Both the position numbers and the translations under genes were made by a program. This document shows positions 3,215 through 36,445 of a DNA stretch of 64,000 nucleotides, piece by piece (position 1 is the first letter of the stretch; every line of letters begins with the position of its first letter). This stretch comes from Streptomyces sp. NBC_01314 (GTDB lineage: Bacteria > Actinomycetota > Actinomycetes > Streptomycetales > Streptomycetaceae): contig NZ_CP108394.1 in assembly GCF_041435215.1 (NCBI RefSeq), positions 4,898,001-4,962,000 of the forward strand. The letters are read 5' to 3'. The notes under the pieces are model-generated. The model was not told the origin of the DNA. It saw nothing but the letters and a program-made list of their open reading frames with translations, and ran no database searches.

Positions 3215-5230
3215 TCAGCTCTCCGCGCTCTCCTCCGGCGTCGCGTCGACGGGCGCCTTGACGGTGATCGCCGGCGTCGCGCCGTTGGTGCCGTTCGTCA
3301 GTGCCAGCTCCCGGGGGGAGAGCACCGGCGGACGGGTGGAGGGGGTGCGGCGGGAGGAGCCGGTCCAGGCGGGCCGGGCCGGGCGCTTGACGATGGAGGC
3401 GAAGACCTCGGCGATCTGCTCCTTGCCCAGCGTCTCCTTCTCCAGCAGCTGAAGCACCAGGTTGTCGAGGACGTCGCGGTTCTCGACCAGGATCTCCCAG
3501 GCCTCGTTGTGCGCGTTCTCGATGAGCTTCTTGACCTCCTCGTCCACCAGAGCGGCGACCTCTTCCGAGTAGTCGCGCTGGTGACCCATCTCACGTCCGA
3601 GGAACGGCTCCGAGTTGTCGCCGCCGAACTTGATGGCGCCGAGACGCTCGGTCATGCCGTACTGGGTGACCATCGCACGGGCCAGGCTGGTGGCCTTCTC
3701 GATGTCGTTCGAGGCGCCCGTGGTCGGGTCGTGGAAGACCAGTTCCTCGGCGGCGCGGCCACCCATCATGTAGCCGAGCTGGTCGAGCATCTCGTTACGG
3801 GTGGTCGAGTACCTGTCCTCGTCCGGCAGGACCATCGTGTAACCGAGGGCGCGGCCCCGGGACAGGATGGTGATCTTGTGGACCGGGTCGGAGTTCGGCG
3901 AAGCCGCCGCGACCAGGGCGTGACCGCCCTCGTGGTACGCGGTGATCTTCTTCTCCTTGTCCGACATGATCCGGGTCCGCTTCTGCGGGCCCGCGATCAC
4001 GCGGTCGATCGCCTCGTCCAGCATGTGGTTGTCGATCAGCTTCTTGTCGCTGCGGGCCGTCAGGAGCGCGGCCTCGTTCAGGACGTTGGAGAGATCGGCA
4101 CCCGTCATGCCGGGGGTGCGGCGGGCGACAGCCCCGAGGTCGACGTCGGGCGCGACCGGCTTGCCCTTCTGATGGACCTTGAGGATCTCCAGACGGCCCT
4201 GCATGTCAGGGCGGTCGACGGCGATCTGACGGTCGAAGCGGCCCGGACGCAGCAGCGCCGGGTCGAGGATGTCCGGCCGGTTCGTCGCGGCGATGAGAAT
4301 CACGCCGCCCTTGACGTCGAAGCCGTCCATCTCGACGAGCAGCTGGTTCAGCGTCTGCTCGCGCTCGTCGTGACCACCGCCGAGGCCGGCGCCGCGATGG
4401 CGGCCGACCGCGTCGATCTCGTCGACGAAGACGATCGCCGGGGCGTTCGCCTTGGCCTGCTCGAAGAGGTCACGGACCCGGGAGGCACCGACACCGACGA
4501 ACATCTCGACGAAGTCGGAACCGGAGATCGAGTAGAAGGGGACGCCCGCCTCGCCGGCGACGGCGCGCGCCAGCAGCGTCTTGCCCGTACCGGGCGGGCC
4601 GTAGAGCAGCACACCCTTGGGGATCTTGGCGCCGACGGCCTGGAACTTGGCGGGCTCCTGCAGGAACTCCTTGATCTCGTGGAGTTCCTCGACGGCCTCG
4701 TCCGCGCCGGCGACGTCCGAGAACGTCGTCTTCGGGGTGTCCTTGGTGATGAGCTTGGCCTTGGACTTCCCGAAGTTCATGACCCGGGAGCCGCCGCCCT
4801 GCATCTGGTTCATCAGGAACAGGAAGACGACCACGATGAGGACGAAGGGGAGCAGGGACAGCAGGATGCCGACGAAAGCGTTCTGCTTGGTCGGGGAGAC
4901 CGTGTAGCCGTCGGGGATCTGCTTGTTCTGGAATTTGTCCTGCAGGGTGTTGGCGAGGGTGACGCCCTGGTCGCCGATGTAGCTCGCCTGGATCTTCGAG
5001 CTTCCCTCGATCTTCTGGCCGTCCTTGAGCTGCACCTTGAGGAGCTGCTCTTCGCCGGTGGTCAGTTTGGCTTCTTTGACCTTGTTGTCATTGATCGCCT
5101 GGACCACCTGGCCGGTGTCCACCGTCTTGTAGCCGCCGGACGAGCCGACAACCTGCATCAACACGACCACGGCAAGGACGGCCAGTACGATCCACATGAC
5201 TGGCCCACGGAAGTATCGCTTCACGTCCAT
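3215..5230 (-). CDS. ftsH: ATP-dependent zinc metalloprotease FtsH
   Basis: Membrane-anchored AAA protease that degrades misfolded membrane proteins and selected regulators. From ATG 5230 it is 671 residues: a first membrane helix at about 10-28, an extracytoplasmic domain, a second helix at about 118-138, Walker A GPPGTGKT, Walker [10 protein letters not shown], the arginine-containing region of homology ending DRQIAVDRP, and the zinc protease motif HEGGH. The C-terminal tail is low complexity. An in-frame ATG at 5266 is possible. [10 protein letters not shown] was preferred because it gives the usual FtsH N-terminus. Neither start has a good ribosome site. Confidence 0.95.
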
Positions 5231-5408
5231 CCATACGGAGCGGTGCCGCCCCGTCCCTCCTGCCATAGTGAGTTTGATAAAAGACTGTTCTTCGGACGGT
5301 ACCCCAGCATTGTCACCCGAAGTCGCAGGGGACTGTCGGCGATCCCGTCCTCGCATGCTCCAACGGCGCGAAACCCTCTGGGGTTCCCGAGCGTCTTACG
5401 GGGGTTGT

Positions 5409-27523: not shown

Positions 27524-28336
27524 ATGACCACGACAGGGGTAGCAGAGGCGGGAAAGACAGGGGTCGCGGCCGTACGTGTACGGGGCCTGCGGCGGTCGTA
27601 CGGGGAGGTCGTCGCCCTCGACGGGGTGGACCTCGACTTCGGGGCCGGGACCTTCACTGCGGTGATGGGGCCGTCGGGATCGGGGAAGTCGACGCTGTTG
27701 CAGTGCGCGGCGGGGCTGGACCGGCCGTCGGGCGGGACGGTGCGGGTCGACGGGGTGGAGCTGGCCGGGCTGAGCGAGCGGCGGCTGACGCTGCTGCGCC
27801 GGGAGCGGATCGGTTTCGTGTTCCAGGCCTTCAACCTCCTCCCCTCCCTCACCGCCGCGCAGAACGTCGCCCTGCCGCTGCGGCTCGCCGGGCGGCGGCC
27901 CTCGCGCGGGGCGGTGCGCGAGGCCCTGGCCCGGGTGGGGCTGGGCGAGCGGGCCGGACACCGGCCGACCCAGCTGTCCGGCGGACAGCAGCAACGGGTA
28001 GCCCTGGCCCGAGCGCTGATCACCCGCCCGGCGGTCCTCTTCGGCGACGAGCCCACCGGGGCGCTCGACACCACGACCAGCCGTGAAGTGCTCTGTCTGC
28101 TGCGGGAGTTGGTGGACCGGGAGGGCCAGACCACGGTCGTGGTCACGCACGATCCGGTGGCCGCGTCGTACGCGGACCGGGTGGTGTTCCTGGTCGACGG
28201 GCGGGTGAGCGGGGAGTTGGGCCGGCCGTCGGTGGAGGGCGTGGCGGCACGTATGGCGGGGTTGGAGCGGGGAGCCGGCGCGGCCGGTACTCCCGGCACT
28301 CCCGGCGGCGGGGTCGTCGGGGGTGTGACGTGCTGA
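27524..28336 (+). CDS. ABC transporter ATP-binding protein (MacB/LolD type)
   Basis: A 270-residue ATPase with Walker A GPSGSGKST, signature LSGGQQQR, Walker B VLFGDEPTGALD and the H-loop VTHDPVAA. The type pairs with FtsX-like permeases that move lipids, peptides or drugs by mechanotransmission. The next gene is such a permease, and their ends overlap (GTG start at 28330, stop at 28336). The C-terminal tail is Gly/Pro/Thr-rich. Confidence 0.94.
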   Translation: MTTTGVAEAGKTGVAAVRVRGLRRSYGEVVALDGVDLDFGAGTFTAVMGPSGSGKSTLLQCAAGLDRPSGGTVRVDGVELAGLSERRLTLLRRERIGFVFQAFNLLPSLTAAQNVALPLRLAGRRPSRGAVREALARVGLGERAGHRPTQLSGGQQQRVALARALITRPAVLFGDEPTGALDTTTSREVLCLLRELVDREGQTTVVVTHDPVAASYADRVVFLVDGRVSGELGRPSVEGVAARMAGLERGAGAAGTPGTPGGGVVGGVTC

Positions 28337-30468
28337 CGCTGTCGTCGTTGCGTACGCGGTGGGCGGCGCTGATCGGGTCGTTCGTCGCGGTGGCGTTGGG
28401 GGTCGGGGTGATGACCGCCATGGGGCTAGGGCTCGCGGCGACGCTCGACCCGCCCGCGCGTGCGCCGGAGCGTTTCGGCTCCTCCCCCGTCGTGGTGGCG
28501 GGTCTGGACAGGCTGACGGTCGAGGTGCGGCGGGGGCCGGGGCCGGCCCGGGTGTCGCAGAGGCTGACCCATCCACACCCTGTGGACGAACGGCTGCTCG
28601 CGGAGCTGCGCGCGCTGGGGCCGGTGACGACGGACGGGGCGGGCCGGGGTTCGGCGGGGCCGGACGCCGTCGGGGTGGACGCGGCCGTCGCCGACGTACG
28701 GGCGGTGGTCGGGGATCGGGCGCGGGTGCTGACGGGTGACGCGCGGCGGCGGGTGGATCCGTCGTACGAGCGGGACGCGGAGGCGTTGGTCGCCGTGAAC
28801 TCGCTGCTGGGGACGGCGGGTGGGGTCACCACGTTCGTGTCCGTGTTCGTGACGGCGTCGACGTTCGCCTTCGTGGTGGCCCTGCGCAGGCGGGAGTTCG
28901 GACTGTTGCGGATGGCGGGTGCGACACCCGGTCAGGTACGGCGGCTGCTGCTCGGGGAGGCCCTGGCGGTCGGGGTCGCGGCGTCCGGTGCCGGGTGTGC
29001 GCTGGGGGCATGGGGGGCGCCTCTGCTGGTACGGGAGTTGGTGGACGGCGGGGTCGCGCCGACGTGGTTCGCGGTGCCGGGTGCGGTGGTGTGGCCGTAC
29101 CACGTGGCCTTCTGGACGGGGGTGTCGGTGGCGCTCGCGGGGGCCTGGGTCGCCGCGCGGCGGGCCGGGCGGATCGGGCCCGTGGAGGCGTTGCGGGAGG
29201 CGTCCGTGGACACCGGGGTGCTGCCGCTGTCGCGCCGGGTGATCGGTTCCGCTCTGCTGGCGGGTGGACTGGGGTTGCTGGCCTGGAAGTTGGGGACCTC
29301 GCCGGCCGACCTGCTGAAGCGGAAGACGTACACCACCCAGCCGATGTTGCTGATCACGGCGGCGGCCGCGCTCGCACCGCTGCTCGTCCGGCCGGTCGTC
29401 CGGCTGGTGGGGGCGGGGCTGCCCGGTGCCGCCGGGCTGCTGATCCGGGAGAACGCGGCCACGTCGGTGCGCCGTACCGCCGCTGTCGCCGCGCCGGTGC
29501 TGGTGACCGTCGCGCTGGCCGGTTCGCTGCTGGGGGCTGCGGGGACGGTGGCGGAGGCCAAGGGGGCGGAGGCGGAGGTTCGGACTCGGGCGGACTTCGT
29601 GGTCACGGGCAAGGGGCTGTCGGCCGATGGCGGGCGGGTCGCCGGGGCGACCGTGGCCGGGTCGGCCTCCACCGCTGTGTATGTGGTGGAGGAGGGGAGC
29701 GCGTTGGTGCGGTCCGAGGCGCGGGCGGTGACGGATGTGTCGGCCTTCGCGGCGGTGTCGCGGCTGCCGGTGGTCGCCGGTGATGTGCGTGATCTCGACG
29801 ACCGGTCGATCGTCGTGAACGAGGAGTGGGAGCGGCACGAGGTGGGGCGGACCGTGCGGGTGTGGCTCGGGGACGGACGTCCCGTACGGCTGCGGATCGT
29901 GGCGGTGCTCGCGCAGGGGAGCGGGGACAACGGGGCGTACGTGACGGCCGCGAACGCCGGTGGGGCGGTCGTGGACCGGGTCGAGGTGCGGGTGGGGAGC
30001 GGGGTGGACCGGGCGGGGGTCGCGGCGGCGCTGGAGGGGACCGGCGGGACGGTGCGGTCGGCCGAGGAGTGGCTCGCGGCGAACCGTCCCGGCACCAGCA
30101 CGCACACCCGGCTCGGCTTCCTCGTGGTGCTGGGGATCGCGCTCGTGTACGCGGGGATCTCGCTGGCCGGGACGTTGCTGATGGCCACGTCGGCACGGGG
30201 CGCGGAGCTGCGGTCGCTGCGGCTGGCCGGGGCCACTCGGGGGCAGGTGCGGGTGGTCGTGGTGGGTGAGGCGCTGGTCGCGGTCGTGGTGGGAGTGGTG
30301 TTGGGAGCGGCGGTCACCGCGGTGAACCTGGCGGGGGTGGTGGGCGCGTTGGGGGTGTTGTCGGCGCCGGTGGGGGTGGCTGTGCCGTGGGAGGTCGTTG
30401 GGGCGTGTGTCGGGGTGTGCGGGGTTGTGGCTGTGGTCGCCGTGGGCGGGGCGTTGGGGCGGCGGTGA
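28330..30468 (+). CDS. FtsX-like ABC transporter permease
   Basis: A 712-residue membrane protein with the duplicated FtsX layout: an N-terminal helix, an extracytoplasmic domain, three helices from about residue 160 (TTFVSVFVTASTFAFVVALRRREFGLLRMAGATPGQVRRLLL), a second extracytoplasmic domain, and a last set of three helices (about 590-710, with GAELRSLRLAGATRGQVRVV). It forms the exporter with the preceding ATPase. No histidine kinase is adjacent, so regulation is not visible. Substrate unknown. Confidence 0.92.
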   Translation: MLTLSSLRTRWAALIGSFVAVALGVGVMTAMGLGLAATLDPPARAPERFGSSPVVVAGLDRLTVEVRRGPGPARVSQRLTHPHPVDERLLAELRALGPVTTDGAGRGSAGPDAVGVDAAVADVRAVVGDRARVLTGDARRRVDPSYERDAEALVAVNSLLGTAGGVTTFVSVFVTASTFAFVVALRRREFGLLRMAGATPGQVRRLLLGEALAVGVAASGAGCALGAWGAPLLVRELVDGGVAPTWFAVPGAVVWPYHVAFWTGVSVALAGAWVAARRAGRIGPVEALREASVDTGVLPLSRRVIGSALLAGGLGLLAWKLGTSPADLLKRKTYTTQPMLLITAAAALAPLLVRPVVRLVGAGLPGAAGLLIRENAATSVRRTAAVAAPVLVTVALAGSLLGAAGTVAEAKGAEAEVRTRADFVVTGKGLSADGGRVAGATVAGSASTAVYVVEEGSALVRSEARAVTDVSAFAAVSRLPVVAGDVRDLDDRSIVVNEEWERHEVGRTVRVWLGDGRPVRLRIVAVLAQGSGDNGAYVTAANAGGAVVDRVEVRVGSGVDRAGVAAALEGTGGTVRSAEEWLAANRPGTSTHTRLGFLVVLGIALVYAGISLAGTLLMATSARGAELRSLRLAGATRGQVRVVVVGEALVAVVVGVVLGAAVTAVNLAGVVGALGVLSAPVGVAVPWEVVGACVGVCGVVAVVAVGGALGRR

Positions 30469-30479
30469 GGTGAGATGAG

Positions 30480-30560
30480 GTGAGGTGAGTGCCTTCGGGG
30501 CGCGCGGGCGGAGCGCGGATGCGCGGGCGGAGCGCGGATGCGCGGGCGTGGGGAGCGGGT
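30480..30560 (+). repeat. Short GC-rich tandem repeats beside the TnpB-like gene
   Basis: Two copies of GCGCGGGCGGAGCGCGGAT-like units (about 19-20 bases) followed by two GGGGAGCGGGTGC-like units fill the gap between the permease stop and the end of the TnpB-like gene. The copy number is low and no spacers are present, so it is not a CRISPR array. Confidence 0.6.
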
Positions 30561-30593
30561 GCGGGGAGCGGGTGCGTTCCGGCCGGAGCGTCT

Positions 30594-32594
30594 CTAATCG
30601 GCTTGGGTTTCCTGGGTGATCCCGGGTGTTCGGGACCGTCCTGGAGGGTGACTCGGCCGTGGCCACCCTGGGATGGGGGTGGTGTGGGCGTGGCGGTGGA
30701 AGCCTGCCCCGAGTCTGGCCCCGTCCGGCTGATGCCGTGCGGGGGTGCCGATCGTTGTCGGTCCCTGCTGCCGTGACCACCGCCGGCTGCGGTGGGTCGG
30801 GTGCGTGGGGGTCCGCCCCGCCGGACGCTTGCCACCCGGCGCTGGGCCGGGTGGGGCGGGGACCCTGCGCCGCTTCCCGGGCACAGGGCGTCTGTTCGTG
30901 GGACGGCTTTTGGTGCGGTCCCTGGTCTGGTGCTGGACCCGGCTTGCCCGGTCCAGGGCCTCAACCACCGTGCGGATCACGAAGGTTCCGCCGGCGCGGT
31001 CGAGGCACGTTTTGTGCTGGTGGGTGAGGCCGCGGGCGCCGATGCGCTGCCAGGCGGCGCTGTCCCGGCCGGTGCTGTACCCGCACGCTTCGTTGGGGCA
31101 GGTCGCCCATGCCCAGCCCGCCGCCCGGTTGTTGGGTGCCTTGTGGTGGCGGATGGCGGTCAGGCAGTGCGGGCAGTACTTCGACGTCCCGCGTGGCGGC
31201 ACGATCACCACGGCGATGCCGTGGGCGGCGGCGGTGTGGCGGACGTGGGTGACGATCGCGCCGCGCACCGTCTGCGACAGACGCGTGTTCAGCGTGCGGC
31301 CCTTGCCGCGGGCTTCCATGTCGCGGAGGTCTTCGAGGTAGACGACACTCGCCCCGGCCGCAATGGCCTGATCCACCATGAAACGGGCGGCCGCCCTGGC
31401 GAGGGCCGCGTTCAGCCGGGTCCGCCGCCGGGCCACCCGCTCCCGCTCCGCCTGAAGGACGGCGAGCTTGGCCACCTGCCAGGGGCTGGGGCGCATCCCG
31501 CGCTCCTGCCGGGAGGTGATCAGGATCCGCAGTCGGTCGATGCGGGCGCCGATGTGCTCGCCCAGGAGGCGCAGCCGGTCGGCCTTGGCCAGGACTCCGG
31601 CGGCGCGGAAGAACACCGGGCGCCCGTCGGTGAGCACCCGGGGCTGGGTCTCACCGGTGAGGTGGAGGGGGCCGCCGGTGAGCAGGGTGTTCAAACCCCA
31701 GTCGAAGGCCACCGCTCGGGAGTGTCCGGCCCGTTCCGGTTTGCGGACCGCGAGCGCGTAGGGCACGTCGAGCAGCAGCCGTCCTTCGCGTACGCGCAGG
31801 GTGGGCGCGCACAGCACGGCGTGGGCGGGGACGTGGGGTGGCAGGCGGAAACGGATCCGCACCGGATGCCAGTCCGTCCGCGATGCGGGATCGGGACGCA
31901 CCGGAAGCCGCACGGTCAGCACCCCGTACTGGAAGGGATCTTCCGCACAGCGGTCGAGAGTGGCGAGCTGTTTGTCGACGGCCGCGAGGACGACCTGCGA
32001 CCCCCCGCCGGGCGGCGGTTCACACTCGGTGAGACTGGCGGGCAGGCGACGCTGCGTGGTGTGGAAGCCGGCGATCTGCCGGGTGCGGGCCAGCAGCACG
32101 CTCGACGCCACCATCCCGCCGTCGGGCAGGGCGGCCCGCAGTGCCTGCCACTCCGCCTCACTGCGCCGGGCCGGGTCGGCGGGCCAGGTCGCCAGCAACG
32201 CGGCGGTGACCTCGGCGCGCCACCAGGCCGACCGCAGCACCCGGCCCGCCTGCTCCTGCGCGATCCGCACCACCCGGTCCGGCACATACACACCCACAGG
32301 GACGGCCACCGTCCAGCCGAGCCGCCGCAACGCCATCCACCCCTGCGACGGCAACACCCCACCCGACCGGTCGGTACCCGAGGCGAGTCGGGCCAGATCG
32401 GCCTGGTTCCAGTGCTCCCGGACCACGCCGGAGGCCAGCGACTCCACGAGCCCAGACAGCCAGCCCGCCCGCTCCACCAGCTCAGCCTCGGTCAGCCCCT
32501 CACCGGTTACCGCATCCACACCCCGCAACGCACGGGCGCAGGCCGCAGCAACCTGCTGCACCTCCCCCGCGCCCAACTCCACCCTCCGCCGCAC
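30594..32594 (-). CDS. Large TnpB-like RuvC nuclease (putative RNA-guided)
   Basis: A 666-residue protein with a complete OrfB/TnpB catalytic core. RuvC-I is VAFDWG (D298), RuvC-II is VVYLEDL (E421), the zinc ribbon is CPHC plus CPNEAC (C474, C477, C499, C504), and RuvC-III is GRDSAAW (D511). TnpB proteins are RNA-guided DNA nucleases of IS200/IS605 elements and ancestors of Cas12. The N-terminal 290 residues are much longer than the usual wedge/REC part, and 105 Pro/Arg-rich residues follow the core. No TnpA gene or terminal repeats were found. GTG 32594 follows AGGGGG. GTG 32624 is also possible. Confidence 0.85.
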   Translation of the reverse strand: MRRRVELGAGEVQQVAAACARALRGVDAVTGEGLTEAELVERAGWLSGLVESLASGVVREHWNQADLARLASGTDRSGGVLPSQGWMALRRLGWTVAVPVGVYVPDRVVRIAQEQAGRVLRSAWWRAEVTAALLATWPADPARRSEAEWQALRAALPDGGMVASSVLLARTRQIAGFHTTQRRLPASLTECEPPPGGGSQVVLAAVDKQLATLDRCAEDPFQYGVLTVRLPVRPDPASRTDWHPVRIRFRLPPHVPAHAVLCAPTLRVREGRLLLDVPYALAVRKPERAGHSRAVAFDWGLNTLLTGGPLHLTGETQPRVLTDGRPVFFRAAGVLAKADRLRLLGEHIGARIDRLRILITSRQERGMRPSPWQVAKLAVLQAERERVARRRTRLNAALARAAARFMVDQAIAAGASVVYLEDLRDMEARGKGRTLNTRLSQTVRGAIVTHVRHTAAAHGIAVVIVPPRGTSKYCPHCLTAIRHHKAPNNRAAGWAWATCPNEACGYSTGRDSAAWQRIGARGLTHQHKTCLDRAGGTFVIRTVVEALDRASRVQHQTRDRTKSRPTNRRPVPGKRRRVPAPPGPAPGGKRPAGRTPTHPTHRSRRWSRQQGPTTIGTPARHQPDGARLGAGFHRHAHTTPIPGWPRPSHPPGRSRTPGITQETQAD

Positions 32595-32829
32595 CTGCCA
32601 CCCCCTCACACACCCCGAAGCCACGACCCGACCATCACATCAACGATCAAACCCCCATACGGGTTACGCACTCCCGTACGCCCCACCAACCCCGCACCCA
32701 AGACCCAGGAGAACCCAGGACCCCCAGGCCAATCGGTCAACTGTTGAACACCCTGACTCCCCGCCCGTACTCGTGGGATGCTCGCCACGCCGACGGCGGT
32801 TCTCTCACCAGGCCAGAAAGGGCGGTCGC

Positions 32830-33555
32830 ATGCCGATCCGGGGTGTGCTCTTCGATGTTGACGACACACTGTTCGACTACTCGACCTCGGAGGAGGTCGG
32901 CGTGCTCGCCCACCTGCGGGCGCAAGGGCTGCTCGACCAATTCCCCGGCCCCGCCGCGGCACTCTCGTTCTGGCGGACGATCATGGAGGTGCAGTACGGG
33001 CGCTTCCTCAGCGGCGAACTCACCTTCGCCGAGCAGCGGCTCGAACGCACCCGCCGCTTCCTTTCCGACGCAGGACGGGACACCTCCGCCATGTCGGACG
33101 CCGAGGCCTCCGCCTGGTTCGCCGCATACGAGGCCCACCGCAACGCGGCCTGGGCGGCGTTCCCCGACGCCGAGCCCGTTCTCGAACGGCTCGCGGCCGA
33201 CTACCGCCTCGGCATCGTCTCCAACTCGTCCGCCGACCACCAGCGCCACAAGCTTCACACCATCGGGCTGCTGCCCTACTTCGATATCGACAAGGTCCTC
33301 GTCTGCTCCGACCAACACGGCGCGGCGAAGCCCGCGGCGAGCATCTTCCTAGCGGGCTGCGCGTCCCTCGGCCTTCCCCCGCACGAAGTGGCGTACGTCG
33401 GGGACAAGTACACGCTCGACGCCCTCGGGTCCCGCGACGCGGGACTGCACGCGTACTGGCTCGACCGGACGAAGACCGGCAACGGCGCCGCCACCGACGA
33501 CGGCATACGCGTCATCGCCTCGCTCGACGAACTCCCGGACGCCCTGGTCCGTTGA
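32830..33555 (+). CDS. HAD family hydrolase
   Basis: A 241-residue phosphatase-like protein. Motif I is FDVDDTLFD (nucleophile D9), motif II VSNSSADH, the lysine of motif III in HGAAKPAASIF, and motif IV VGDKYTLDA. A helical cap (residues about 15-95) marks subfamily I. Such enzymes dephosphorylate small metabolites such as sugar phosphates or nucleotides. The substrate is unknown. ATG 32830 follows AAAGGG by 8 bases. The gene is divergent from the TnpB-like gene. Confidence 0.92.
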   Translation: MPIRGVLFDVDDTLFDYSTSEEVGVLAHLRAQGLLDQFPGPAAALSFWRTIMEVQYGRFLSGELTFAEQRLERTRRFLSDAGRDTSAMSDAEASAWFAAYEAHRNAAWAAFPDAEPVLERLAADYRLGIVSNSSADHQRHKLHTIGLLPYFDIDKVLVCSDQHGAAKPAASIFLAGCASLGLPPHEVAYVGDKYTLDALGSRDAGLHAYWLDRTKTGNGAATDDGIRVIASLDELPDALVR

Positions 33556-33570
33556 CAGGGTGTCCGGGCC

Positions 33571-33598
33571 GATCTCGGGATCCCGGGATCCCGAGATC
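33571..33598 (+). terminator. 28-base perfect palindrome after the HAD gene
   Basis: GATCTCGGGATCCC is followed directly by its complement with no loop. It lies 15 bases past the HAD stop and may act as a terminator or a protein-binding site. Confidence 0.6.
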
Positions 33599-33684
33599 TC
33601 GGGGAGCCTGCCAGGGGCACCGCCGTACGTCCGATCCGTGAAACTCGGTCACTCGGGGCCGTCCGAACTGCCGAGCATGACCCC

Positions 33685-34334
33685 ATGGTTGACGCATCTC
33701 TCTACGCAGCGTTTCTGGTCGCGGCCTTCGCTCTCTGTGTCACTCCGGGGCCCGACATGATGTTCATCGTGGCCGTCGGGGGCGGGGTGGGCCGGTGGTC
33801 GGGGTGATGGCGGCGGCGGGGGTGGCGAGCGCGATGCTGGTGCACACCGTGGCGGCGGCGTTGGGGCTCTCGGCGTTGTTCGAGGCGTTGCCGGTGCTCT
33901 ACTACGTGCTGCGGTGGCTGGGGGCCGCGTATCTGCTGTACCTGGCGGTGAAGGCGTTCCGGGACCGGTCGGTGCCGGGGGACGAGGGCGCCGCATCCGG
34001 GACCGTGACGGACGACCGTGGGCGCACCGGGCTGCGGCGGGCGTTCTGGCAGGGCGCGGTCACCAATCTGCTCAATCCCAAGGTGATCCTCTTCAACGTC
34101 GCGTTCCTGCCGCAGTTCGTCACCCCCTCCCTCGGACACGTACCCGGCCAACTCCTGCTGCTCGGCTGCACCATCGTCGTCATGGGCTGCGTGTGGGACG
34201 GCTCGGTCGCGCTCGTCGCCGGTCGTCTCACCCAGGTGCTGCGCCGCAGTCGGCGGGTGGCGCGGGGGCTCAACGTCTTCACCGGCACGGTGTTCGCGGG
34301 GCTGGCGGTGCGGTTGGTGACCTCGCCGAAGTGA
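33685..34334 (+). pseudogene. LysE family exporter, frameshifted
   Basis: The reading frame from ATG 33685 gives a good LysE N-terminus (MVDASLYAAFLVAAFALCVT, PGPDMMFIVAVGGGVG) but stops at about 33807. The rest of the protein (GVMAAAGVASAMLVHTVAAA to RLVTSPK) continues in the next frame to 34334. One extra base, or two lost, in the G-rich stretch 33780-33805 explains this. LysE/RhtB proteins export amino acids. The break may be real or a sequencing error. An internal GTG at 33795 could make a truncated product. Confidence 0.75.
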
Positions 34335-34359
34335 GCGGAGCGGCAGACGAACAGCGGGC

Positions 34360-34404
34360 GTCAACCCAAGGTTGACACCCGGGTGGTGTCAACCTACGGT
34401 TGAC
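34360..34404 (+). promoter_or_regulatory. Two identical palindromic operators before the HTH-ClpN gene
   Basis: GTCAACCCAAGGTTGAC (34360-34376) and GTCAACCTACGGTTGAC (34388-34404) share the form GTCAACC-N3-GGTTGAC. The centres are 28 bases apart, and the second ends two bases before the ATG. The intervening bases make a third inverted pairing (GGTTGACACC/GGTGTCAACC). This looks like an autoregulatory operator. Confidence 0.82.
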
Positions 34405-34406
34405 GC

Positions 34407-35132
34407 ATGACGACGAACCCGCGAGTCACCGCGTCCATCCGTCTCGACGAACTCATCGATGCCATCAAGAAGGTCCACCCGGAACCGCTCGACCAGCTCC
34501 AGGACGCGGTGATCGCCGCGGACCACCTCGGCGAGGTGGCCGACCACCTGATCGGCCACTTCGTGGACCAGGCCCGGCGTTCGGGCGCATCCTGGACGGA
34601 GATCGGCAAGAGCATGGGGGTGACCCGGCAGGCAGCGCAGAAGCGGTTCGTGCCGAAGGGCGAGAACGATCTCGACGCCAGCCAGGGGTTCAGCCGCTTC
34701 ACCCCGCGCGCCCGGAACGTGGTCTCGGCCGCGCACGACGAGGGCAAGGCCGCCGGTGCCGTCGAGGGGGTACCCGCCCACCTCGTCCTCGGCCTGCTCG
34801 CCGAACCGGAGGGACTCGGCGCCAAGGCGCTCGTCGCCCAGGGCGTCTCCCCCGAGTCCGTACGGCAAGCCGCCACAGCCGCCCTGCCGCCGGCCTCCGC
34901 CGAGGTGCCCGAACTCATCCCCTACGGCTCCGAAGCCAAGAAGGTCCTCGAACTCACCTTCCGCGAGGCCCTCCGCCTCGGCCACAACTACATCGGCACG
35001 GAACACATCCTGCTCGCGCTGCTGGAGTTCGAGAACGGGGAGGGAGTACTGAGCGGACTGGGTGTGACCAAGGAGGCCACGGAGACGGACGTGGCAGAGG
35101 CGCTACGGACGCTGGCAGAAGAGCGGGCGTAG
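34407..35132 (+). CDS. HTH-ClpN fusion protein, probable autoregulator
   Basis: A 241-residue protein. An N-terminal helical region holds a helix-turn-helix (GASWTEIGKSMGVTRQAAQKRF, about residues 60-81, of which GASWTEIGKSMGVTRQ is the core). From about residue 92 there are two Clp-N repeats (FTPRARNVVSAAHDEGKA and LELTFREALRLGHNYIGTEH), the adaptor- and substrate-binding domain of ClpC/ClpA, with no ATPase part. It may sense Clp substrates or adaptors and repress genes. The tandem palindromes directly upstream suggest autoregulation. The ATG has no ribosome site. Confidence 0.85.
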   Translation: MTTNPRVTASIRLDELIDAIKKVHPEPLDQLQDAVIAADHLGEVADHLIGHFVDQARRSGASWTEIGKSMGVTRQAAQKRFVPKGENDLDASQGFSRFTPRARNVVSAAHDEGKAAGAVEGVPAHLVLGLLAEPEGLGAKALVAQGVSPESVRQAATAALPPASAEVPELIPYGSEAKKVLELTFREALRLGHNYIGTEHILLALLEFENGEGVLSGLGVTKEATETDVAEALRTLAEERA

Positions 35133-35190
35133 AACGCCTCCGGCTTCGACGTACGACGGGCACCCGCAAGCAGACCAATCACCCCGTTCG

Positions 35191-35227
35191 CCTGACGGAC
35201 CCTGGCGTCGCCGCAGGCTCCGTCAGG
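35191..35227 (+). terminator. Hairpin after the HTH-ClpN gene
   Basis: CCTGACGGA (35191-35199) pairs perfectly with TCCGTCAGG (35219-35227), with a 19-base loop that can fold further. It lies about 60 bases after the stop. Confidence 0.65.
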
Positions 35228-35408
35228 TCCAAGTTTCACCCGCCGAAGCCCGGGCGACGGCTACCCGCCGAAGCGCATGGGCGCGCCGAGCACCCCGGCG
35301 CCCTTGATCAACACTGCATCGTGGGGGGTGCCTCTATGTTCTTCGTCAAGCGTGCGCGCAGCTTCTGCCCGGTTCGATCTTCTCTCTAGGGCATGAGACT
35401 GTCTGGTC

Positions 35409-35825
35409 GTGGCAGAGATGGCGAGTGGGTTGGACGAGGCCTTGGCTGAGGCGTCATCTCCTTCGTGGACGCAACGTGTTCGTGCCGGGTGTGACCTTGC
35501 TTCCTTCGCTGATGTTCCTCAGGCTGCGGAAACGCTGGTGGGACTGCTGCTGGACGTCGAGGACACGGCGGTGACCCGGCAGACGGCAGAGGCCCTGGCC
35601 CGGGTGGGGACGGTGTCCGCCATAAGGCTTATCGCTCTCGCGGTTGCCGAGGCTGACGACAACCGGGCCGACTGGCTGCAGACCGGGGTGCATGACGCGC
35701 TCGTGGGACTGGGCGGTGTGCCGGACGTCGCAGCGGCCTGCGGGAAGCTCGCCCGGGATCCGGAAGAAGCTGTCCGTCGGGGGGCCGCAGAAATCTCGGC
35801 ATGGGCAGACGACAGAAGGTGTTGA
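35409..35825 (+). CDS. HEAT-repeat-like small protein
   Basis: A 138-residue all-helical protein with repeated helix pairs (RVRAGCDLASFADVPQAAETLVGLL, then VTRQTAEALARVGTVSAIRLIALA, then DALVGLGGVPDVAAACGKLA; each is shown only in part), the pattern of HEAT or PBS-lyase repeats that bind other proteins. Codon use is less GC-biased than in its neighbours, which suggests recent acquisition. GTG 35409 has no clear ribosome site. Function unknown. Confidence 0.7.
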   Translation: MAEMASGLDEALAEASSPSWTQRVRAGCDLASFADVPQAAETLVGLLLDVEDTAVTRQTAEALARVGTVSAIRLIALAVAEADDNRADWLQTGVHDALVGLGGVPDVAAACGKLARDPEEAVRRGAAEISAWADDRRC

Positions 35826-35852
35826 TCTGCGTCGACCTGTCTGCGGGCTGGT

Positions 35853-36445
35853 TCATGCAGCCGTTGCCCGGGGCATGCGGGGTTCGTAGAAGGTGCCGTC
35901 GCGGAGCATCGCGAAGAGCACGTTGATCCGTTGTCGGGCGAGGCGGAGGAGGGCTTGGGTGTGGGTCTTTCCGCGTGTCCGGCATTTGTCGTAGGTAGGT
36001 GCAGGAGGTCGGGTCGTGGAAGGCGGTGAACGCGGAGAGGAACATGGCGCGTTTGAGTTGCCGGTTGCCGCCTCTGGGGACGTGTCCGCCGTGGATCGAT
36101 GTCCCTGAGGACTTCGTGGCCGGGGCGAGGCCGGCGTAGGAGGCGAGGTGGGCGGCTGTGGGGAAGCTGGTGCCGTCGCCGACAGTGACCAGTAAGGTGG
36201 CGGCGGTCCTCCAGCAGGGTGCTGATCTGGGCTTCTATCGCCCGGCGTTGTTCGTGGACGGCGCCGAGCGAGCGGGCCAGGGAGGGGATCACGATGTCGA
36301 GCGTGCCGGTTCCCGGGACGACGACGGTCTGTTCGTCGAGCGCGTCGAACACATCGTCGACCAGCCGTTTCGCCATGCGCAGGGCCTTCGGGCGGATCAC
36401 CTCGACCAGCCTGCGGCGTCCGGCCTTTCGCAGCGCGGCCGGAGA
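35853..36445 (-). pseudogene. IS110 family transposase remnant
   Basis: Three frames together give the C-terminal part of an IS110/IS116/IS902 transposase. The first is RPKALRMAKRLVDDVFDALD with VVPGTGTLDIVIPSLARSL (frame ending near 36190). The second is GDGTSFPTAAHLASYAGLAP and HVPRGGNRQLKRAMFLSAF. The third is RLARQRINVLFAMLRDGTFY. At least two frame changes and loss of the MPGVG-type segment are needed, and the N-terminal DEDD catalytic domain is missing. It cannot be active. Confidence 0.85.

Follow-up and report, generated by a model that had tools for sequence, protein, structure and literature searches.

A large TnpB-type gene on the minus strand

The window, that is, the whole stretch of 64,000 nucleotides of Streptomyces sp. 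NBC_01314 DNA that was analysed, contains an open reading frame at exactly 30594-32624 on the minus strand. Read from the GTG at 32624 it encodes 676 amino acids; the in-frame GTG at 32594 agrees with the family consensus start (MRRK..LGEGE in the alignment) and yields a protein of about 666 residues. This bears out the gene call and size given in a preliminary description of the locus, from which the strand was absent. The features of the gene are as follows, in the numbering of the 676-residue frame.

30597-32594, minus strand: large tnpB coding sequence, likely start GTG 32594 (reading frame opens at 32624)
30594-30596, minus strand: tnpB stop codon TAG, within the right tip
31701-31703, minus strand: codon of RuvC residue D308, kept in 66 of 67 homologues
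31332-31334, minus strand: codon of RuvC residue E431, kept in 67 of 67
31062-31064, minus strand: codon of RuvC residue D521, kept in 67 of 67
31053-31256, minus strand: TNB/zinc-ribbon region (residues 457-524), PF07282 match, with C484, C487, C509 and C514 in 67 of 67
30597-30974, minus strand: tail, codons 551-676, predicted disordered (pLDDT <50), overlapping the putative omega-RNA

A protein database search gave 863 matches at E <=1e-3 among 8000 scored candidates. The alignment used here (67 rows) consists of the window protein and 66 sequences from the best 120 of the 863, with fragments and some near-duplicates omitted. Hence, the three RuvC acids and the CxxC...CxxxxC motif previously read from this protein are not only present but conserved, and tail residues are also conserved across the 67 sequences. 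PF07282 matches the window protein with 33.7 bits (cutoff 26.3), the NCBIfam model guided_TnpB with 42.7 bits (E 4.2e-11), below its cutoff of 100, and the PADLOC profile matches are mostly Cas12 models with modest scores.

The predicted structure has a wedge/REC, RuvC and TNB fold, with fold matches covering residues 22-562. In this model the extra size of the protein is accounted for by an enlarged wedge/REC part and by a tail of about 126 codons that is predicted to be disordered. Structure matches include Cas12f, Cas12m, Cas12k, TnpB and Fanzor2, and such matches do not decide ancestry. Nuclease-dead exapted TnpBs (TldRs) are defined by loss of RuvC residues; the RuvC triad of the window protein is present, which places it outside that group. 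At D308 the protein reads D-W-G and thus lacks the DPG motif found at RuvC I in the Fanzor-related IS607 TnpB clade (PMC10711439). Overall, the gene is real and conserved and, judged from its sequence, encodes a predicted RNA-guided nuclease of a mobile IS607-type family.

The element has ends that recur in different flanks

The preliminary description reported neither ends nor terminal repeats. This does not hold: the ends are plain when relatives are compared, and they recur in different flanks.

30587-32749, minus strand: whole mobile element, read as TnpA-less IS607-type, 2163 bp, left end 32749, right end 30587
32750-32754, minus strand: left-flank motif AGGGT (TAM-like; target motif), AGG(G/C)T at the left ends of relatives

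Thirteen loci from named genomes were compared, four of them from Streptomyces tailanensis and three from Streptomyces sp. NBS 14/10. DNA similarity stops at 30583-30587 in 11 of the 13 and at 32755-32757 in five, with different sequence beyond. Since letters of the tips may be common to the target, the ends are uncertain by one to three bases. Inspection by eye reveals a short imperfect inverted similarity between the two tips.

AGG(G/C)T precedes the left tip in 22 of the 26 ends legible by eye, a descriptive count, as several tips were located via these letters. The exceptions are L002 (GGGGT), L099 (AGACT), L077 and L081; left ends that are truncated or diverged (L005, L006, L008 and others) were left uncounted. 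Empty sites could be aligned for two relatives. At L004, joining the left flank, up to and including AGGGT, to what follows GACGCT gives a sequence that is gapless against three of six homologues (L101, L103, L106); against the remaining three, compensating gaps are required upstream of the junction. At L003, the join is gap-free against two of five homologues (L170, L173); L171 and L172 need compensating gaps downstream and L174 several gaps. Compared with the uninterrupted homologues, neither junction has a target duplication. Alternative joins of equal length, for instance AGG + CT, score equally well or better in several homologues. After AGG, the L003 homologues read C or T (L170-L173) but G in L174, and, from these sequences, the ancestral target may have been AGGCT.

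For the window element itself, an empty site was sought and no clean one was found. In L046-L048 the gene at 34407-35132 comes no more than about 400 bases after the ABC gene, and in L049 the ABC gene is succeeded by the stretch 33683-34931; therefore the difference at this site is larger than the element alone. Beside the element, ORFs named by eye as HAD-like and LysE-like (32756-34390) are variable among relatives at the site.

Several derivatives and details of the family are worth recording. In the leader, from the left tip to the gene start (32595-32749), stretches are kept among subfamily A copies (GCGTAACCCGTA..., CGTTGATGTGAT...). Locus L011 carries, at about 4970-5400, a mini-element that runs from the left tip into roughly the last 120 codons and finishes with the right tip, so consisting of a left end and the putative omega-RNA without the nuclease. 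Right-end pieces only are seen in L094, L080, L098, L082 and L084, and internal deletions in L009, L010 and L091.

An IS607 serine recombinase in two relatives with matching tips

The absence of a TnpA partner, noted previously, was confirmed: searches of the host genome for Y1 and IS607 TnpAs place none between 4898001 and 4962000. In two other genomes of the genus, on the other hand, proteins of 211 (L086) and about 205 residues (L089, start chosen by us) are encoded directly upstream of the large tnpB, with the stop of the upstream ORF overlapping the tnpB start. Both carry a Resolvase domain and match the IS607 transposase model (142.5 bits for L086 and 126.4 for L089, cutoff 110). The left tips of these two loci match those of TnpA-less subfamily C copies, and their right tips match the family tip. 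Because an IS607 serine recombinase accompanies the large TnpB in these elements, whose tips match, the family was filed as IS607-type, and the window copy is, from its sequence, best read as a TnpA-less element of this type. Matches to the two TnpAs were found in three of 45 loci scanned, namely L086, L089 and L155 (on a Mycolicibacterium plasmid), in which a TnpB relative comes after a gene annotated as IS607 transposase. At 2943-3647 in L086, the TnpA-bearing element lies immediately after another TnpB-like ORF, which by eye it interrupts.

The host genome has five IS607 TnpA matches above cutoff, and four of the five places were examined (L166-L169). At L166-L168 the TnpA is 32-35% identical to that of L086 and the loci match ordinary TnpB and have other ends; at L169 neither the L086 TnpA nor the ordinary or the large TnpB found a match. 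The Y1 TnpA of the host is found at three loci with a common element of about 1.8 kb, whose ends are unlike those of the window element and whose TnpB at L146 has 410 residues. The Y1 search covered the host genome; no Y1 TnpA was noticed beside the relatives. Thus, none of the host loci examined holds an IS607 or Y1 TnpA with ends matching the window element.

IS607 elements recombine at matching dinucleotides, and a fixed nucleotide flanking the right end is part of the RNA scaffold (PMC10711439); GG ends are described for most members (PMC6188088). Here, subfamily C tips have GCT on both the left and the right, and in subfamily A, to which the window copy belongs, only T is common (AGGGT left, GACGCT right).

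A putative omega-RNA overlaps the 3' part of the gene

A putative omega-RNA of roughly 240 nt was delineated at about 30587-30829 on the minus strand. It overlaps 30480-30960, the region for which a small RNA had been suggested.

30824-30829, minus strand: helix 1, 5' arm AGCGTC; three of its six bases are paired to the right tip by RNAalifold, the rest extended by eye
30587-30592, minus strand: helix 1, 3' arm and right tip GACGCT, pairing with AGCGTC
30747-30753, minus strand: helix 2, 5' arm GATCGGC, changes on both sides in four of seven pairs
30596-30602, minus strand: helix 2, 3' arm GCCGATT, adjoining the right tip
30567-30586, minus strand: host DNA past the right tip, predicted guide (first 20 bases), differing between insertions

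RNAalifold was run on 34 right-end regions (L095, L012, L079, L082 and L084 are absent from this alignment). In the resulting structure, the right tip forms base pairs with an intragenic segment, and GATCGGC with GCCGATT next to the tip. Covariation was counted over 13 pairs and 33 distinct rows and compared with 500 shuffles, which ignore relatedness. Cells are paired in 97.4% of cases versus 93.1% in shuffles, 20 cells have both-side changes versus 5.8, and the covariation score is 0.180 versus 0.096, with 0 of 500 shuffles as high in each case. The numbers of pairs with both-side changes (4; reached in 22 of 500 shuffles) and of further pair types (9; 126 of 500) are weak against shuffles. 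Slid versions of the helices pair in 22-47% of cells. The covariation support comes from helix 2 (four of its seven pairs), while helix 1 hardly varies; the helix 2 changes are mainly the subfamily types GATCGGC/GCCGATT, GATGAGC/GCTCATC and GATCAGC/GCTGATC, plus L006. Folded as a single sequence, the window stretch has a z of -3.78, and its minimum-energy fold contains helix 2 and leaves the 3' arm of helix 1 unpaired. A search of Rfam at E up to 5 gave a single match, on the opposite strand and below the gathering score, and no RAGATH-18.

Third codon positions were compared with the window copy over codons 576-650 versus codons 16-300. The differences are 0.03-0.15 versus 0.19-0.42 in six subfamily A copies and 0.23-0.31 versus 0.40-0.49 in five subfamily B copies; seven subfamily C copies show no drop (0.47-0.55 versus 0.45-0.53). 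Overall, the alignments show, within the 3' part of the gene, an RNA structure that is conserved and in part covarying and whose end coincides with the right tip.

Most length changes in this region preserve the reading frame. With varying lengths, segment 55-125 of the RNA alignment is 2 modulo 3 in 32 of 34 rows (exceptions L080 and L083) and segment 125-322 in 31 of 34 (exceptions L098, L147 and L148). Segment 322-453 keeps the frame in 12 of 12 subfamily A rows and differs in others. Among the exceptions, L080 and L098 are right-end remnants, and L147 and L148 are recently moved host copies, whose frame breaks are evidence against a need for the tail protein. Within the tail region of L147, L148 and L149 there is an extra GC-rich stretch of 35 nt, which breaks the frame.

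Copies in the host genome and in the genus

In the host, long protein matches to the window TnpB are L147 and L149 (48%), L148 (44%) and L095 (42%). L147 and L149 lie near opposite chromosome ends and have the same flanks, the arrangement that terminal repeats would give. Over 2183 columns, L148 and L149 are 96.7% identical, and their flanks differ, which therefore points to recent movement in subfamily C. The host genome contains no second close DNA copy of the window's own subfamily. The right-tip pattern (<=2 mismatches) has 13 matches there, versus five for a reversed control; four of the 13 are exact, one of them being the window. Across the genus, 46 of 295 genomes match the right-end DNA at E <=0.001, many marginally; a search of phage records and IMG/VR found no relatives. 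For a Mycolicibacterium protein of 593 residues (L154), 255 relatives were found. The best 120 of these are of similar length and come from Mycolicibacterium, Rhodococcus, Nocardia and others, and most of the named ones are called transposase or zinc ribbon protein.

Proposed mechanism and alternatives

We propose, with a probability of about 0.8, that the locus is a TnpA-less IS607-type insertion sequence whose sole gene encodes a large TnpB, a predicted RNA-guided nuclease that would re-cut the empty site. The tnpB mRNA would yield an omega-RNA with the 3' part of the gene as scaffold and the host DNA immediately past the right end as guide, a role taken from the TnpB literature, where the reRNA guide derives from the flank (PMC8612924) and IS607 TnpBs with reRNA are described (PMC11061315, PMC10711439). 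Behind an AGG-type motif, TnpB and omega-RNA would cut chromosome copies that lack the element, which would then be restored by repair from the occupied copy. Movement would need an IS607 TnpA in trans.

The preliminary description had read the gene as a possibly domesticated, or distinct, actinobacterial lineage between TnpB and Cas12-like effectors. The reading as a TnpB-type protein with an intact catalytic core, from an actinobacterial lineage of its own, is supported; domestication is contradicted by recurring ends and empty sites. A TnpB lineage kept by the host en route to Cas12 would suit a window without TnpA, an intact catalytic core and the single close DNA copy in the host genome. 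Yet copies are found with differing flanks, empty sites could be aligned for two relatives, the recent host copies that are 96.7% identical occupy different sites, recombinase-bearing relatives share the tips, the mini-element of L011 exists and no CRISPR array is nearby, so that we regard this origin as most improbable. Mobile copies with recognisable ends are just what the preliminary description had named as speaking against its proposal, though they are IS607-type and not IS605-type. That a formerly active element of this type is now stranded, with no TnpA, a silent or inactive nuclease and slow decay, is in our view very unlikely: many relatives are truncated or reduced to right ends and a TnpA source with matching ends was not found in the host, but the frame of the window copy is open, its residues are intact, third-position-independent change between copies is low and subfamily C copies moved recently in the same genome.

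The 3' conservation could also reflect recombinase-binding DNA or a constraint on the protein instead of a guide-RNA scaffold. The right end would have to be read by TnpA too, and the frame-preserving length changes and conserved tail residues fit such a constraint. Against it, compensatory changes link segments about 150 nt apart, third positions change less in subfamilies A and B, and the tail is predicted to be disordered; we consider it very unlikely. Less improbable, though still unlikely, is dual coding, in which the stretch of roughly 240 nt would be both scaffold and a selected in-frame tail that binds or processes the RNA in cis, tying the nuclease to its own guide, while mini-elements like that of L011 would add trans-acting guides inside a single genome. 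The frame-keeping pattern could also be explained by a few inherited length changes, and the odds of dual coding are lowered because the recently moved L147 and L148 break the frame there. In ISDra2, the omega-RNA overlaps tnpB residues 335-408, and the C-terminal domain is disordered and dispensable (PMC10097598).

With the mobile IS607-type reading, an apparently orphan oversized TnpB becomes a defined and testable mobile system, for which ends, motif, guide and RNA scaffold are predicted. Multi-copy actinobacterial TnpBs of roughly 600-700 residues tied to IS607 recombinases widen the TnpB size range, and the long overlap of coding sequence and likely scaffold is a good case for two constraints within one sequence. 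Among the literature matches listed, titles and abstract openings contain none on an actinobacterial large-TnpB group; coverage of subscription journals is partial, and a published mention is possible.

Comparison with known systems

The host's own IS605- and IS607-type elements with ordinary TnpB (L144-L146, L166-L168) are, like the recombinase-bearing relatives, tnpA plus tnpB elements; they differ in their ends, in the 410 residues of the L146 TnpB and in IS607 TnpAs that are 32-35% identical to that of L086. Unlike type V Cas12f, Cas12m and Cas12k, the window gene sits in a mobile element and has no CRISPR array; as previously stated, none is present nearby, and 28000-36000 contains only one two-copy direct repeat of 27 nt. 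Identities to these effectors are about 10-16%, with rmsd mostly 5-8 angstrom or more in the cited matches, and because of these low identities and high rmsd the Cas12 structure ranking gives no placement.

In comparison with the TnpB of ISDra2, an IS200/IS605 element (PMC8612924, PMC10097598), the wedge/REC part is longer, the tail has about 126 codons versus residues 376-408, and the recombinase partner of the family belongs to another class. A close likeness is seen to IS607 TnpBs with reRNA, as described for ISXfa1 (PMC10711439) and ISFba1 (PMC11061315). These share with the present family a TnpB beside a serine recombinase (here in relatives), absence of target duplication, a right-end guide RNA (here putative) with a fixed right-boundary nucleotide, and an AG-rich left motif, AGGAG/GAGGG or GGG there and AGG(G/C)T here. 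In contrast, the window tips are not GG, RAGATH-18 is absent, the window copy has no TnpA and its protein has about 666 residues versus an average of 390 for IS607 TnpBs (PMC11061315). The earlier figure of about 400 residues for common TnpB agrees with that average and with the 353-550 residues spanned by 59 TnpB orthologues (PMC10278001). The element is a large variant of a known system and not a domesticated step towards CRISPR. What is unusual is the size of the protein together with the long overlap between its tail and the likely guide-RNA scaffold, an enlarged form of the arrangement described for ISDra2 (PMC10097598).
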